A stretch of DNA of 64,000 bases from Methanoregula sp. (GTDB lineage Archaea > Halobacteriota > Methanomicrobia > Methanomicrobiales > Methanospirillaceae), in the NCBI GenBank assembly GCA_026625165.1, contig CP112999.1, forward strand, positions 1,703,288 through 1,767,287, read 5' to 3'. The stretch's first letter is position 1. Every line of letters begins with the position of its first letter. Below, piece by piece: positions 35,960-46,597 of this stretch. Position numbers and translations under genes: made by a program. Under the pieces are notes generated by a model. That model saw only the letters and a program-made list of their open reading frames with translations. It made no database searches and was not told the DNA's origin.

Positions 35960-38065
35960 TCATTCTTCATCAAGGTACCCGGACAGGGCGTCGAGGAGCT
36001 CCTGTGCCGACTGGTACCTTTGCCCGGGATCTTTCTGGAGGCATTTTAAGATGATCTTGTCCACGGCGGCTGCTCCGGGATTGAATTCAGAGGGCAAAAC
36101 GGGCGGGTCGCGGAGGATCGCGGTTCCGACTTCCACCATGCTCTCTCCCCCAAACGGGATCGAACCCGTGACCAGCTCGTAGAATACAACGCCGAGCTGG
36201 TAGATATCGGTCCTTTCGTCCGTCCTCCCGAACTCAGCCGGTGAGACCTGCTCCGGGGCGGCATACGCAAGGGAGAAGCCTGCGATGCTGGACTTCCGCA
36301 TATCGGTTGCAAGCACCTTGCTCATCCCCCAGTCGGTGATCTTGGGGGTCAGGTCAGCAGTGACAAGGATGTTATGCGGTTTGATGTCCCGGTGGATAAT
36401 CCCCAGCCCGTGGGCATAGCGCAACGCATCGGCGATCTTCCGGACAATATACACCGCTTTCCAGACCGGGACCGGTTTTGCAATCATCTCAAGCGACCCC
36501 TCGACGTACTCCATCTCAACGTAGGGGAGGGGCAGGATGTTGACTGCAGACACTTCCACGATATTTGGGTGGCGCAGCATCTCCCAGACCTTGATCTCGT
36601 TTAAGAATGATTTCCCGGTCACCTCGTCAAAGCTGATCGGGATCTTGACTGCGACCCTGTGCCCGTCTGAAGTGCGGGTCGCTGCAAAGACCCTTGCGAT
36701 CCCGCCCCTGCCGATTGAGCGGATATCAGAATACTTTCCTTCCAGCTCGCGGGGGAAGTAGTACTTCTGGTCGGCCGCAGGCCGGACAGCGGGCTCCTGC
36801 ACATCGGTCTGGTCCGTCACTACCGTCACACTGGCAGCCCGGGCTTTTTCAGATTGCGTAGCCACCGGATGTACCCCAGGCACAGACGCTCTTTCCGGCA
36901 GCGGTTCGGGCAGCGTCGCCCGGTCCCGCCGGTAAAGGAGGAAAATCACACCTCCGCCGATGCAGAGGACAGCAACAAAGACAAGAAGGGCGGCAGTCCA
37001 GGGAGCTGACCCCAAAATCGACCTGAGCAAACCGGCCCGTTGGGCAGAAGCCGGTTCAATAGAGGCTCCTGTTGCAGCCTGGGAAGGCAGAGCTGTGGCT
37101 GCAGGCCGGACGGTGACCGGAAGAGTGCCAAAAACGACCCGGGCCGGGGTGATGGCAGCTGCCTCACGGGCTCCGGGGTAAAACTCTACCGGATCCATCA
37201 GCGGGTACCGGTCGACAACGTTCTGGTTTGACGCAGCCACCAATTTTTTGTTTGCCCCGACAAGGATGTTATACGGAGTGTCCCCGATACCGTCCCCGTT
37301 GGCATCCTTCCCGGAATAATCTCCCCAGTAATTGCCCATCGGGCTCTTTACATCCCTGCCGAGGTAGCGGTACGTGAATGCCGTATCTGTGTCCCAGACC
37401 GATGTAATGCTCTTTGATATGACATTTGCCGTATTGTCAAACGTATTTAAGAAGATCCGGTTGGAGGATGAGGATTCATCCAGAACGATGCCCACGGTAT
37501 TTTTAGTGATGCTGTTGGCTTCGATCCTGTTTCCCGTCGATCCTTCGAGCGCAATTCCGGTCCGCACATTCCGGGTGATGTTATTGCCCGTAATAACCGA
37601 TTTATCAGCAGAGTCAAGGAAGATTCCCTGCCCACAGCTTTTCACCGTGTTCCCGGTAAGAGTGGTGCGGTCCGAAGAGATCCGGATCCCGCTTAACAGT
37701 TCGGCGTTCTGGACAACAAAACCTGAGAATGTGCAGCCGTTTGCAGTAATCTCGACCGCATTTCCTCTTTTTTCCGGGTCGATCACCGGTGCCCCGCCGC
37801 CGGTATCGATCCCCCGGACGGTGAGGGTTTTGTCGACCCGGATCTTTTCATTGTAAGTCCCGCTCCCGACAAGGATCGTATCGCCTGCGGATGCATGGCT
37901 GACAGCTGCCTGGATCCCGGTAAAATCCCCCCCCGAGGGCAATACGGTAAATTCCGCTGCAGCGGTGGTATGCACGAGCAGCATGATAAGGACGATGGCA
38001 AGTGCGCAGGCTGCTGACACGGGGAGGGGGTTTTTAATACCGATCACCTGTTCAGAATGGGACAT
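35960..38065 (-). CDS. Transmembrane Ser/Thr protein kinase with extracellular beta-helix
   Basis: 701 residues. Signal peptide 1-37; NosD/CASH-type right-handed beta-helix repeats at about 39-290 (the NYWGDYSG block is common in methanogen surface proteins); a Pro/Ala linker; one TM helix at about 355-378; and a Hanks-type kinase domain at about 445-698. Kinase residues are intact: Gly loop IGRGGIARVF, K474 in VAVK, E490, HRDIKPHN with D560, DWG (D578) replacing DFG, and APE at 603-605. The predicted topology is sensor outside, kinase inside. It lies directly downstream of an FHA-winged-helix gene on the same strand. Confidence 0.92.
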   Translation of the reverse strand: MSHSEQVIGIKNPLPVSAACALAIVLIMLLVHTTAAAEFTVLPSGGDFTGIQAAVSHASAGDTILVGSGTYNEKIRVDKTLTVRGIDTGGGAPVIDPEKRGNAVEITANGCTFSGFVVQNAELLSGIRISSDRTTLTGNTVKSCGQGIFLDSADKSVITGNNITRNVRTGIALEGSTGNRIEANSITKNTVGIVLDESSSSNRIFLNTFDNTANVISKSITSVWDTDTAFTYRYLGRDVKSPMGNYWGDYSGKDANGDGIGDTPYNILVGANKKLVAASNQNVVDRYPLMDPVEFYPGAREAAAITPARVVFGTLPVTVRPAATALPSQAATGASIEPASAQRAGLLRSILGSAPWTAALLVFVAVLCIGGGVIFLLYRRDRATLPEPLPERASVPGVHPVATQSEKARAASVTVVTDQTDVQEPAVRPAADQKYYFPRELEGKYSDIRSIGRGGIARVFAATRTSDGHRVAVKIPISFDEVTGKSFLNEIKVWEMLRHPNIVEVSAVNILPLPYVEMEYVEGSLEMIAKPVPVWKAVYIVRKIADALRYAHGLGIIHRDIKPHNILVTADLTPKITDWGMSKVLATDMRKSSIAGFSLAYAAPEQVSPAEFGRTDERTDIYQLGVVFYELVTGSIPFGGESMVEVGTAILRDPPVLPSEFNPGAAAVDKIILKCLQKDPGQRYQSAQELLDALSGYLDEE

Positions 38066-38140
38066 AGAAGCACATGAGAGACAAAGTACCCGTTCTTTTT
38101 GTTAAGTGAAATTGGACTCCCCGGTTACAAATTGGTTTCT

Positions 38141-38926
38141 CTAGGGGGCCCCGGGGATGATCATCAGCAGTTTTACACCTTTGACCCCGCGGGAGAGCTC
38201 CAGCAGGTCCCCGTCCTGCACCGGTACCCGCAGGTGCGTCCCGACCTGTTTGTTATTGAGCAGCGTCCCTCCGGTACTGCCGCAGTCCTCCACAAACCAT
38301 GTACCATTCTCAAGCATGAGCCTGCCATGAGGCCGTGATATCCGGGTCACTGCGGTATATTCATCGGAAAGGACAATATCATCCGGGGAGTTCTCCCGGA
38401 CCGGTGCGTCGGCATCGGTCCTGCCGATGTTGATTTTTTCCTTTTTTAACAAAAAGACCTGCCCGTCCATCGCCCCCCCGAGCACGATGGCGGCAGGCAT
38501 GTTCCCCATGAACTCCTTTGAGAGCGCTCCCTTGACCGAAGCGAGCCGGGTGTTGATCCCGGTTTCAAGGATCTGCACCTTTTTGTTGGAGAACAGGCCG
38601 AGGTTCCGGATAATTGCCTCAAGCCCGCCGGGGACAAGGGAATATTCCCACACCGGGTGGATCCCTTTTGAGGTGGAGGAGCCAAGGCCAGCCCCCTTTC
38701 TGATGACCCCGATGGAGCGCAGTTTGTCAAGGTGCTTTTTCGTGTTCTCGTAGCTGGTCTCGATCTCTTTTGAGATCGAACGGACATCCCCCGGCTTCTT
38801 TTCAAGATACTTTAAAATCCGGAGGCGGGCACTGCTCGAGAGCACTTCGAGGTATTCGGACAGTTCGTCCAGCGAGTCGGAGGAGTCGCTGACGATTAGA
38901 GTCGGGGACTTGTCTTTTGGAATCAT
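38141..38926 (-). CDS. FHA-domain winged-helix transcription factor
   Basis: 261 residues from the ATG at 38926, which has AGGTCC five bases upstream. An ArsR-like winged helix covers about 20-95 (LSSSARLRILKYLEKKPGDVRSISKE split over helix 1-2; YENTKKHLDKLRSIG as recognition helix). A FHA domain covers about 163-258 with INIGRT, S197/R198/H200 and GSTGGTLLNN. FHA domains bind phosphothreonine, so this protein could dock to a phosphorylated kinase or be controlled by it. It lies 75 bp upstream of the kinase gene. Regulated genes are unknown. Confidence 0.88.
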   Translation of the reverse strand: MIPKDKSPTLIVSDSSDSLDELSEYLEVLSSSARLRILKYLEKKPGDVRSISKEIETSYENTKKHLDKLRSIGVIRKGAGLGSSTSKGIHPVWEYSLVPGGLEAIIRNLGLFSNKKVQILETGINTRLASVKGALSKEFMGNMPAAIVLGGAMDGQVFLLKKEKINIGRTDADAPVRENSPDDIVLSDEYTAVTRISRPHGRLMLENGTWFVEDCGSTGGTLLNNKQVGTHLRVPVQDGDLLELSRGVKGVKLLMIIPGAP

Positions 38927-39023: not shown

Positions 39024-39104
39024 AACCCCGCGGTTACATGACCGAACCTGCGGGTTCAGACATTGAACCTGCATGATTCTGGCAATTTATTACCCATTAT
39101 AAAT
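39024..39104. promoter_or_regulatory. Phased AACC-N4-GGTT sites and TATA box
   Basis: AACC-CCGC-GGTT (39024-39035), AACC-TGCG-GGTT (39045-39056) and a third, degenerate AACC-TGCA-TGAT (39066-39077) start exactly 21 bp apart. A TATA-like CATTATAAATC follows at about 39094-39104, directed to the small secreted-protein gene on the plus strand. The sites are also upstream of the FHA regulator gene on the other strand. Two helical turns of spacing would put all sites on one face of the DNA. Confidence 0.5.
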
Positions 39105-39182
39105 CAGTGTGTAGTAAGGTGATGCACCACAGTTCTGGTGTGTCATCTCCAAACACCACGCACCACACAAGAAGAGGAAACG

Positions 39183-39398
39183 ATGAACACCGGAATGATC
39201 CTGATCGGGGCGGCGCTGCTTGTATTCTCCGTAGCTCTTATCGTCACGCCATCAGGAGCAGTGCCGGCAACCGGTGCCCCCCTGCCGGTTGGGGCAGGGG
39301 ATGCATCGGTATGCGAAATGATTATCGGGGATATTCCTTCAGGCGGCCTTTTGGGCTCGTATGCCAGCAGAGAAGAAGTGAGAAACGATGTACCTTAA
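39183..39398 (+). CDS. Small secreted or membrane-anchored protein
   Basis: 71 residues from the ATG at 39183, preceded by AGAGGAAAC. N-terminal hydrophobic segment (about 5-23, ILIGAALLVFSVALIV), then a Gly/Pro-rich part and DIPSGGLLGSY. No family recognised. Its promoter region holds the three phased AACC sites beside the FHA regulator gene. Confidence 0.55.
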   Translation: MNTGMILIGAALLVFSVALIVTPSGAVPATGAPLPVGAGDASVCEMIIGDIPSGGLLGSYASREEVRNDVP

Positions 39399-43039: not shown

Positions 43040-46000
43040 TTAATATTTTATGCGCCGGTTCCACCAGCCAAAGTAAGCGATAACGCTGATTAATGCAATT
43101 ATGATGACAATAATGATTGGGTTTTGTTCCGCGATCCCGAGCATCCATGCAAACATCCCGACATCGGTCATAATGGCAGGTTTCTGCATCGGCTGGATCG
43201 TCATGTTCGGCTCCTCTTTCTGTTTTTCTGCAGTTGCCTTTGCGGTGAGCATGCCAAAGACCGACGAACCTTTCGGGGAATCGCCGCGGAAGACCATGTT
43301 GCCCTGTTTATCAGTCCCTGTATAGACCGTGCTGACCAGTTCGGTGATACCTGTCTCATCACTGATCCGTGCGATATGGACGGTATCTTTCCCGCCGTGC
43401 AGGTTCACCCATGACGGGGGAATAGTCATCGTCACGTTTGCGGCGCCTGTGGAGAGGTTGACTTTCCGGATATCCATTGTGTAGGCTACGGCGTCCATAC
43501 TGAGGTTGTTCTGTTCAGCTATTGTCCGGAACTGATTCATCACGGCAGGACTTACAATCCCATTTATCGTGTTATCGATCGCCACCCGCTGTGTAAGGGC
43601 GGGCAGGTCAGCCCGGATCGAGCCGGAAACGTTCCCGATCGAGAGGTTTGCGAGGAGCGGGTCTGTGGCAAACTCCGCCCTCGTTACTTTTCCCTTGATC
43701 TTCCGGTCTTTAATGGTAAATTTTTCACCCCAGAACGTGATCAGGACCCCGGGGGAGGAATGCTGGTAGACCGTGACGCTTTCACCGGAAACCGTGACAA
43801 CCGCGCCGGCAGCATCGGCCGCTCCCATATCAAGGCTCAGGGAATTATCCCCTTCTGCATTGAAACTCATCCCATCAAACCCCATCGGGAAGGTTCCGGC
43901 TGCCGCTTCGGTTGCAGCCGCTGGCGCTGATGGTGCGGCGGGGGCGGCAGGTGGAGCTGCCTGAGCCGCTGCGGGGGCGGCCGGGGCTGCAGCTGCTGCA
44001 GCCGCAGGGGGGGCATCGGAATCACCGGAGCCGCCCCCACCTCCATCACCTCCGCCGGAAGGGGGCGGGGGTGGCGGTGACGGCGGCACACCAACCTGGA
44101 AGCTCAGCTCTGTATACTCATCGTCGTTCTGACCATCATAGATTGCAGCCTTTAGCGCGGTGACGGCTTTATTGCTTTTCAGGCTCCCGGCTCCCAACAG
44201 GGTAAAAATATTTGTTCCTCCGCCCAACTGGAGGTTTTTGACATTATTCCCTGCATTGACGATATCAAACACGTTATTGTAACCGGGACTCTGGACGATT
44301 ACCTTGTACTGGCCATCGGAGAGATCTGTATAGAGATAATCGACGAAATTTCCATCGATACCAGTCGAACGGGTCGTTTTCATGATAAAATTTGGTCCCA
44401 TTACCCAAATCTGAACACCCAGCGGGTAGCTCCCGGGGGCTGTGCCCTGAATGGAGACATTTGTATTCCGCGGGAAGGACGATGAGGAGAGTGCAGCGCT
44501 GACCCCGGGTTTTACCAGTGTTACCGGCACAGAGTTAAAGTTCACTGTGCCTATATTGGCAAGGTCATTGGGGGAGCTCTCGGCAAAAACATTGTATGTC
44601 CCGTGATCGAGATTGACCGAGTGCGTATCCCATGACCATGACCATGTCCCACCGGCAACACCAGCTGACTGAAATGTTCCGGCGTTTCCATTAACCACTG
44701 AATTACTTGGAGGGTCTGTGCTCTGGATCTGTGCCCCGTTGGGTGGCAGGTTCGATCCATTGATGAAGAGATACGTGGTACCACTGACAGTATTATAACC
44801 GGTAAACTGGATTGTATCACCAAGATAATGGGTGCACCCGCCAGTGATGGAGATATTCACCTTTGTAGGATCCAACGGTGCCGGGGGGGTTGGGGGTGAG
44901 CCAAGGACGAGGAACTGCATCTTCGTGTAGGAATCGTCTTTGTTATAGTTATTGAGTGCAGTGAGGAGGGGGTAGGGTATACCGGGATTCTCAAGGCTGC
45001 CGGCCCCGAAGAGTGTGAATACATCCAGACCGGCGGCGCCCAGCTGCAGGTTAATGACATTGTTGCCGGAAGTTACGACATCAAACTGGTTATTTCCCAT
45101 CGGGTGGTGGACTGCAATCATATATTCGCCCGGTGCAAGACCAGCCGTTGCAACAGGATAACTGTAGGAAGTATCCGGGTTCACCGGGTTCGTCGCCCTC
45201 AAAGCATAATTTTCCCCGGTGATCCAGAACGCGAGACCCGGCCCGGGATCACCCTGTGCAGTACCGACAGCAGAGAGCGGATCTCCCGGGTTTACTGTAC
45301 TTCCCGGGCTGAGCGTTCCGCTTACCCACGGTTCATCGAATGTGATTGTCGTTGAATTGAAATTATTTGTCCCGATGTTGGGCAGATCATGGGGAGAACT
45401 CTCGGCATAGATCGTGTACGTGCCGGGGTCAAGGTTGTACGTATGTGTATCCCAGTTCCATGACCATGTCCCCCCGCTCGCAGCCTGCTGGAATGTTGCC
45501 GGGTCTAAATCAATGACAACAAAAAGCCGGGGGTCCGCATTCTGGATTTGGGAACCCTGCATGTGCAGGTTCGGGCCGGTGATGAACAGGTAGGTTGTCC
45601 CGCTCGCGGTATTTGCCCCGGTCAGGTGGATAGTTTCACCGATATAATACGGGGATGCCCCTGCGGCCGAGATTGTTACCGCAGCATTCGATGATATCGG
45701 AGGGGACGGGGGAGAACCGGCAACGGTAAAGGAGAGATGAGTATATATATCGTCGATATTCGGGTCATCGAATGCCACCTTGAAATAATCCCTGAAAGTC
45801 CCCCATGGGAGATACTTCAGGCTGCCGGGCCCTAAGATCGTCGCGACATTCGGCGTGGCCCCACCCATCTGCAGGTTCCTGAGATTGTTTCCGCTTTTCA
45901 CGAGATCGAACTGGTCGTTTTCCATCGGGTGCTGGACGATTACATCGTACGTCCCGGGCGAAAGATAGGATGTTGGGATCCCGCAGGAGAACGATTCGGA

Positions 46001-46597
46001 ACCGAATGTGCCGGCATTCATCAGCACCAGATAATTAGTTCCCCGCACCCAGCAATTAACCCCTGGAGTCGGGGAGCCGGTTGCCGTACCGTTTACAAAG
46101 AGATCATCCCCGGGATTTATTGTCGAATGGGTAAGGGATGCTGTTACGAATGGTTCGGCAAGAACGACTGATATCAAAGCATATGTCGTGGAAGACAGAT
46201 GATCCTGATCCCGGGGATCGCTTGCCGCATAGATAGTATATGTTCCAGGATCGAGGTTGATTGTATGGGTGTCCCAGTCCCATGAGTAGGGATCTCCGGC
46301 TGCAGACTGGAATGATGCCGCGTTCCCGTCCATGACTGGCCCATTCCGTGGATCCGTACTCTGGATCTGTGCTCCGTAGAGTGGCAGGTTCGGACCGGTT
46401 ATGAAAAGGTAGGTTGGCCCTCCGGTTACTGTATTATTTCCATAGAGTGCGATCGTTTCCCCGAGATAGTAACTCTGGGGACCGGCAGCGTGAAGGGTGA
46501 CAACTCCTGCCGTCACATGACCCGGGAAAAGTCCCATAAAAAAAAAGAGCGAGAAGCCGATGAAAAAAAGAAAACGGACTCGAGCTGCCACCTTCAT
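43040..46597 (-). CDS. DUF3821 surface protein with three repeats
   Basis: 1185 residues. Signal peptide about 1-31. Three tandem DUF3821-type units at about 32-310, 315-585 and 588-865; each begins with YYLGETI or YIGETIHL or HYLGDTIQF and has the TYLFI(T/N)G and LDPGTYTIYA blocks. A Pro/Gly/Ala linker (about 870-945) follows, then a beta-rich domain and a C-terminal TM helix at about 1152-1172 with a short basic tail (NRRIKY). Cell-surface location is predicted; function unknown. Confidence 0.88.
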   Translation of the reverse strand: MKVAARVRFLFFIGFSLFFFMGLFPGHVTAGVVTLHAAGPQSYYLGETIALYGNNTVTGGPTYLFITGPNLPLYGAQIQSTDPRNGPVMDGNAASFQSAAGDPYSWDWDTHTINLDPGTYTIYAASDPRDQDHLSSTTYALISVVLAEPFVTASLTHSTINPGDDLFVNGTATGSPTPGVNCWVRGTNYLVLMNAGTFGSESFSCGIPTSYLSPGTYDVIVQHPMENDQFDLVKSGNNLRNLQMGGATPNVATILGPGSLKYLPWGTFRDYFKVAFDDPNIDDIYTHLSFTVAGSPPSPPISSNAAVTISAAGASPYYIGETIHLTGANTASGTTYLFITGPNLHMQGSQIQNADPRLFVVIDLDPATFQQAASGGTWSWNWDTHTYNLDPGTYTIYAESSPHDLPNIGTNNFNSTTITFDEPWVSGTLSPGSTVNPGDPLSAVGTAQGDPGPGLAFWITGENYALRATNPVNPDTSYSYPVATAGLAPGEYMIAVHHPMGNNQFDVVTSGNNVINLQLGAAGLDVFTLFGAGSLENPGIPYPLLTALNNYNKDDSYTKMQFLVLGSPPTPPAPLDPTKVNISITGGCTHYLGDTIQFTGYNTVSGTTYLFINGSNLPPNGAQIQSTDPPSNSVVNGNAGTFQSAGVAGGTWSWSWDTHSVNLDHGTYNVFAESSPNDLANIGTVNFNSVPVTLVKPGVSAALSSSSFPRNTNVSIQGTAPGSYPLGVQIWVMGPNFIMKTTRSTGIDGNFVDYLYTDLSDGQYKVIVQSPGYNNVFDIVNAGNNVKNLQLGGGTNIFTLLGAGSLKSNKAVTALKAAIYDGQNDDEYTELSFQVGVPPSPPPPPPSGGGDGGGGGSGDSDAPPAAAAAAAPAAPAAAQAAPPAAPAAPSAPAAATEAAAGTFPMGFDGMSFNAEGDNSLSLDMGAADAAGAVVTVSGESVTVYQHSSPGVLITFWGEKFTIKDRKIKGKVTRAEFATDPLLANLSIGNVSGSIRADLPALTQRVAIDNTINGIVSPAVMNQFRTIAEQNNLSMDAVAYTMDIRKVNLSTGAANVTMTIPPSWVNLHGGKDTVHIARISDETGITELVSTVYTGTDKQGNMVFRGDSPKGSSVFGMLTAKATAEKQKEEPNMTIQPMQKPAIMTDVGMFAWMLGIAEQNPIIIVIIIALISVIAYFGWWNRRIKY

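Follow-up and report, generated by a model that had tools for sequence, protein, structure and literature searches.

We report an archaeal gene pair in which the gene of an FHA-domain transcription factor is followed by the gene of a receptor-type Ser/Thr kinase, found in a 64,000-nucleotide stretch of a Methanoregula sp. genome (hereafter the window). It is likely that the two proteins form a one-step module leading from the cell surface to a promoter, in which a threonine in the tail of the regulator (Thr9) would serve as the phosphoswitch and an array of repeated sites upstream of the regulator gene would be the target; phosphorylation and the binding of phosphothreonine (pThr) and of DNA are inferred. 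The gene pair, its domains and intact residues, the near-fixed order and adjacency of the genes, the co-segregation of their paralogues and the conservation of the array are shown below.

The receptor kinase and the winged-helix/FHA regulator

The kinase gene and the segments of its product are located in the window as follows.
35960-38065, minus strand: receptor-type Hanks Ser/Thr kinase, 701 aa (Pfam, hydropathy, AlphaFold2)
37973-38029, minus strand: signal sequence or N-terminal hydrophobic segment, residues 13-31 (hydropathy)
37166-37954, minus strand: predicted extracellular NosD-type right-handed beta-helix, approximately residues 38-300 (NosD 6e-29; AlphaFold2 strands 38-241)
36917-37000, minus strand: predicted transmembrane (TM) helix, residues 356-383 (AlphaFold2 and hydropathy, hydrophobic segment 359-377)
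35984-36736, minus strand: catalytic domain, residues 444-694 (Pkinase 1.1e-40; residue conservation in paired kinases)

Searches against Pfam matched the kinase to Pkinase (1.1e-40, residues 445-691; 140.2 bits against a curated cut-off of 31.7), NosD (6e-29) and Beta_helix (2.4e-14). The AlphaFold2 model contained a confident beta-helix (strands 38-241, most strand blocks with pLDDT >90), a long TM helix at residues 356-383 and a kinase fold, with disordered linkers at 310-349 and 384-434. The catalytic motifs are complete (K474, E490, HRD 558-560, K562, N565, DWG 578-580 and APE 603-605), and VAVK, E, HRDxKxxN, DWG and APE are kept across the paired kinases, meeting the criterion for a Hanks-type enzyme. 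By sequence and predicted fold the protein is a one-TM Hanks-type Ser/Thr kinase, its membrane topology and catalytic activity being inferred. It was the sole Pkinase match above cut-off in the 2.17-Mb single-contig genome; from a reading of their frames, we take two weak Pkinase matches to be ABC1/UbiB-type and Kae1-Bud32-type proteins. The only clear Hanks kinase of this genome is thus encoded next to its only FHA gene, the regulator having given the one FHA match in the whole 2.17 Mb.

The regulator gene comes first and the kinase gene follows on the same strand after a 75-bp gap. Its features are listed below.
38141-38926, minus strand: transcription factor, 261 aa, with ArsR-like winged helix, helical linker and C-terminal FHA domain (Pfam, AlphaFold2, foldseek)
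38900-38902, minus strand: Thr9 codon; the residue lies in the disordered N-terminal tail and is a candidate phosphoacceptor (alignment; tail pLDDT <50)
38636-38881, minus strand: winged-helix DNA-binding domain, residues 16-97 (HTH_5 1.7e-6; AlphaFold2)
38732-38755, minus strand: recognition helix, residues 58-65 (SYENTKKH; hardly varying among 96 relatives and paralogues)
38153-38497, minus strand: FHA domain, residues 144-258 (PF00498 5e-11; AlphaFold2; sequence and fold searches)

The ATG start of the regulator is backed by relatives; the reading frame stays open up to a TTG at 39025. Pfam assigned an FHA domain (PF00498, 5e-11; 43.3 bits against a cut-off of 20.7) and HTH_5 (ArsR, 1.7e-6), and the AlphaFold2 model (mean pLDDT 83) placed a disordered tail at residues 1-14, the winged helix at 16-97, two helices at 101-140 and the FHA domain at 144-258. 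Sequence and fold searches returned the FHA domains of GarA, EmbR, Rad53, ArnA and DgcB, with foldseek matches starting at 1.1e-6 and GarA among the best PDB matches. The FHA domain retains G168-R169, R195, S197, H200, S217 and N224; G168, R169, R195, H200, S217 and N224 are present in 96/96 relatives and Ser or Thr at 197 in 94/96. The Asn usual in the NGT loop of FHA domains is replaced by Gly219 (Gly in 88/96 relatives). That the domain reads pThr is inferred, there being no pThr-binding data and the NGT-loop Asn being missing. The preliminary description of this locus, made from sequence alone, had claimed both genes, the beta-helix, one TM helix, intact catalytic motifs and a winged helix joined to an FHA domain, and all of these held. 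Its further claim of a one-step route from surface to promoter is supported by the genomic evidence, with phosphorylation and pThr binding remaining inferences.

Thr9 was found in all 94 regulators with a residue aligned at this position. At +1 to +3, Ile, Leu and Val predominate (+3 is I, L, V or M in 66/95), and acidic residues come next. In DgcB of Bdellovibrio the FHA domain binds a phosphorylated Thr of its own tail, for which a hydrophobic +3 residue is critical, and self-interaction is also known for the FHA proteins GarA and OdhI (PMC6733907). The regulator meets the tail criterion of such self-reading switches, namely a conserved Thr, a disordered N-terminus and a hydrophobic +3 residue. 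Because DgcB reads its own phosphorylated tail through this same pattern, we propose Thr9 as the switch, that is, as a phosphoacceptor which would be read by the regulator's own FHA domain in the manner of GarA, OdhI and DgcB; the proposal rests on analogy, and both phosphorylation of Thr9 and its binding are inferred. In 94/96 proteins Thr9 and Ser23 of helix 1 stand exactly 14 residues apart, so the conservation of Thr9 could have a structural reason.

Conservation of the pair across Methanomicrobiales

Regulator homologues were present in 98 of 150 genomes of the order, covering 29 of 35 genera, and named relatives carrying one include Methanoregula, Methanoculleus, Methanolinea, Methanofollis and other Methanomicrobiales. 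The archaeal reach of the pair, which the preliminary description had left to a search of archaeal genomes, proved to be confined to this order among the genomes searched: a profile search covering 393 genomes of the phylum detected the regulator in 64, none of them outside the order, and the module was not found outside Methanomicrobiales in any genome searched. One metagenome-assembled genome labelled Thermoplasmata carries a regulator homologue at 66% identity and is likely a mislabelled bin.

Conserved adjacency had been named beforehand as the test that could refute the pairing, and it held, with at least 133 of 146 regulator copies in tandem with a kinase in several families of the order. 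Position matching found a same-strand downstream kinase domain within 2.1 kb for at least 119 of the 146 copies. A rescan covered 20 of the other 27 regions and 80 paired ones, with 7 left out, and 14 of the 20 were also tandem pairs. The kinase adjoins the regulator in convergent orientation at one locus (L068), the regulator copies of four loci (L069, L070, L077 and L083) lie close to contig ends, and L071 holds two regulators, one PP2C gene and one kinase. At L083:4602-6005 (genome G108), regulator and kinase similarity occur in a single 467-aa frame near the contig end, which is either a fusion or a frameshift. The gap between the genes is short or overlapping in most pairs, often <100 bp, with eleven 4-bp overlaps.

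Across 96 paired kinases, K474, E490, H558, D560, K562, N565, D578-W579-G580 and APE are each kept in at least 87 and mostly in 94-96, and R559 is kept in 83. The sensor part is swapped among these kinases, a beta-helix like that of the window's kinase occurring in 31/96 and the other types being PEGA domains, five or six TM segments without a recognised domain, and short two-TM forms; the beta-helix receptor form put forward in the preliminary description is thus one type among several. The distance matrices of regulators and kinases correlate at 0.783 (93 pairs, 64 genomes), exceeding all of 2000 partner swaps among same-genome paralogues (mean 0.483, maximum 0.687), and therefore the paralogues moved as pairs. 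In genome G103, which has no regulator, the kinase is interrupted and no longer has DWG, which fits decay of both partners. A Pfam-confirmed PP2C phosphatase gene lies on the same strand near 16/96 pairs; in one family it immediately precedes the regulator. A profile search found no PP2C_2 match in the window's genome; resetting of the proposed switch there must therefore use another enzyme or turnover.

An operator-like array upstream of the regulator gene

The region upstream of the regulator contains two features.
39024-39069, minus strand: array GGTT-N9-AACC-N4-GGTT-N9-AACC-N4-GGTT, half-site period 21 bp (genome motif search; relatives' upstream regions)
39183-39398, plus strand: small secreted or membrane protein (MNTGMILIGAALLVFS...), candidate co-regulated gene (similar small ORFs beyond the array in 8 relatives)

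The copy upstream of the regulator gene is the only place in the 2.17-Mb genome where the 38-bp form of the array matches perfectly. Among 61 genomes of the family, six perfect matches occur; five of them, and two more with one mismatch, lie directly upstream of the regulator gene. The 29 nearest upstream regions (28 named relatives and the window) contain GGTT-N9-AACC in 19 and the extended form in 15, compared with means of 0.22 and 0.005 after shuffling; these regions are related by descent and the counts are not independent. The DNA flanking the array has diverged among relatives. Only 13/96 upstream regions across the order carry the site, so the array is a feature of a clade, and elsewhere in the order the DNA site has shifted or become different although the recognition helix has stayed the same. 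A de novo motif search for an order-wide operator in the 96 upstream regions returned chiefly start-codon and composition signals, and no such operator is claimed. The array is flanked by what we take, from a reading of the alignment, to be TATA-like elements for both divergent transcripts, and this placement points to joint control of the regulator operon and the gene at 39183-39398. That the array is an operator bound by the regulator is an inference, without DNA-binding data.

The product of 39183-39398 (plus strand) belongs to a signal-peptide-like family of Methanoregula-type genomes in which mainly the N-terminus is conserved. The leader of this gene contains a hairpin at 39116-39150 (plus strand; GGTGATaCACGA...TCGGCGTGTCACC) of nine pairs, almost all of them present in 17-18 of 18 relatives, with few double changes. 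It may be an RNA element or a DNA palindrome; no Rfam match was found for it or upstream of the regulator. The second-best array-like site of the genome (L166:1501-1538; G000:C1:514533-514570), with 2 mismatches and a perfect core palindrome, sits between two divergent secreted-protein genes, upstream of a secreted protein, and is a candidate further target of the regulator. The sixth perfect array in the family (L172:1501-1538, genome G158) is distant from any regulator gene and lies between a divergent secreted-protein gene and the gene of a DUF4349 protein. The secreted-protein genes beside these two sites looked alike by eye; tblastn returned nothing and their kinship was dropped. Three of five GAACC-N4-GGTTC sites in the genome were not counted as targets, lying in coding sequence or far upstream of a gene.

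Proposed mechanism, alternatives and known systems

We propose that the membrane receptor kinase senses a surface cue through an exchangeable outer domain, here the beta-helix, and would phosphorylate its dedicated ArsR-like winged-helix/FHA partner, most likely on Thr9. The FHA domain would then bind pThr9 in the same or a neighbouring subunit, changing the DNA binding of the dimer, and the regulator would act through the GGTT/AACC array at least on its own promoter and on the divergent small secreted-protein gene. In some relatives the neighbouring PP2C phosphatase may reset the switch. Kinase activity toward Thr9, like the direction of regulation and the nature of the signal, is inferred.

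One alternative is docking, in which the FHA domain would bind an autophosphorylated Thr of the kinase and hold the regulator at the membrane, the signal altering its release or local concentration and Thr9 not being the switch. Docking on phosphorylated kinases is common among FHA proteins. The main pThr residues of the regulator's FHA domain are conserved, and EmbR needs its FHA domain to interact with PknH and to be phosphorylated by it (PMC9239209, PMC4601284). However, the activation loop in the window's clade reads KSS[IV]AGFS, carrying Ser and no conserved Thr, which disfavours simple docking at this loop, and a search of the juxtamembrane segment for a docking site found no clearly conserved Thr, whereas Thr9 of the regulator is invariant. 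We therefore regard docking as unlikely. Less likely still is that the two proteins are operon partners without phospho-coupling, the regulator being a phospho-independent autoregulator whose FHA domain only dimerises and the kinase having targets elsewhere. The array at the regulator's own promoter and the missing NGT Asn would fit this, but R169, S/T197 and H200 of the FHA domain are retained over a large divergence, the genome has no other FHA gene, and the co-segregation of paralogues points to a specific partnership. We consider this explanation very improbable and retain the Thr9 phosphoswitch as the preferred reading.

The closest known circuit is PknH-EmbR of Mycobacterium tuberculosis, in which embR lies upstream of pknH in one operon (PMC9239209) and EmbR combines an OmpR-like winged helix with a BTAD and, at its C-terminus, an FHA domain through which it interacts with PknH and is phosphorylated by it (PMC9239209, PMC4601284). 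The gene of a winged-helix/FHA regulator upstream of that of a membrane receptor Ser/Thr kinase is common to both, and the regulator matches EmbR (profile 4.6e-6, model 2.0e-6). In contrast to EmbR, its winged helix is ArsR-like, a BTAD is lacking and the N-terminus carries an invariant Thr. It does not have the SARP architecture, since Pfam gives HTH_5 and no BTAD and only two helices (101-140) separate the winged helix from the FHA domain; because its DNA-binding domain differs and the BTAD is absent, the regulator is not a member of the SARP/EmbR family. The archaeal module further differs from PknH-EmbR in being limited to one order, in its multiplied matched pairs and in its beta-helix, PEGA or multi-TM sensors. 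By analogy, it most likely works like PknH-EmbR but from different parts.

The Sulfolobus Arn system is the best-studied archaeal FHA system. In Sulfolobales, ArnA/ArnB, with an FHA protein under Hanks-kinase control, regulate transcription (PMC10470591, PMC12852372, PMC6509490), the kinases ArnC and ArnD acting with them. The regulator shares this archaeal theme of an FHA protein under a Hanks kinase, and its FHA fold matches that of ArnA (5a8i, foldseek). ArnA, however, pairs with the vWA protein ArnB, has no winged helix and is not encoded beside its own receptor kinase; an ArnA-type vWA pairing is not met here, the conserved neighbour of the regulator being the kinase. GarA, OdhI and DgcB act by enzyme inhibition or through a GGDEF enzyme, whereas the output of the regulator would be DNA binding and the role of its tail is predicted only. 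As in bacterial and archaeal two-component systems, an operon encodes a membrane sensor and a dedicated DNA-binding partner, with shuffled sensors and multiplied cognate pairs. Unlike these, the pair contains no histidine kinase or receiver domain, and the signal would pass by Ser/Thr phosphorylation read by an FHA domain (predicted), not by a His-Asp phosphorelay. A bolder reading, toward which we lean slightly negative, is that Methanomicrobiales evolved a Ser/Thr counterpart of two-component systems independently of bacteria, with multiplied cognate pairs, shuffled sensors, a self-read pThr in the tail and tandem operators at its own bidirectional promoter.

How archaea couple surface sensing to transcription by Ser/Thr phosphorylation is largely open. 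The preliminary description had called this arrangement undescribed in a methanogen; the archaeal version does seem undescribed, the kind of circuit being known from PknH-EmbR (PMC9239209). We found no description of the archaeal module in the open-access literature searched; subscription papers were outside the scope and its novelty is provisional. On genomic evidence, its domains are ordinary; their archaeal combination is locked and, within what we searched, undescribed, with the biochemical steps inferred. An order-wide methanogen pair, often with one copy per genome and with a predicted phosphosite (Thr9), reader (FHA domain) and DNA site (the 21-bp-period array), makes a whole archaeal route from kinase to promoter directly testable, and if confirmed it would be a second, differently built instance of the PknH-EmbR design.

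Elsewhere in the window, 43040-46597 (minus strand) encodes a repetitive surface protein of 1185 aa that shows similarity to DUF3821 and contains a linker rich in Ala and Pro.
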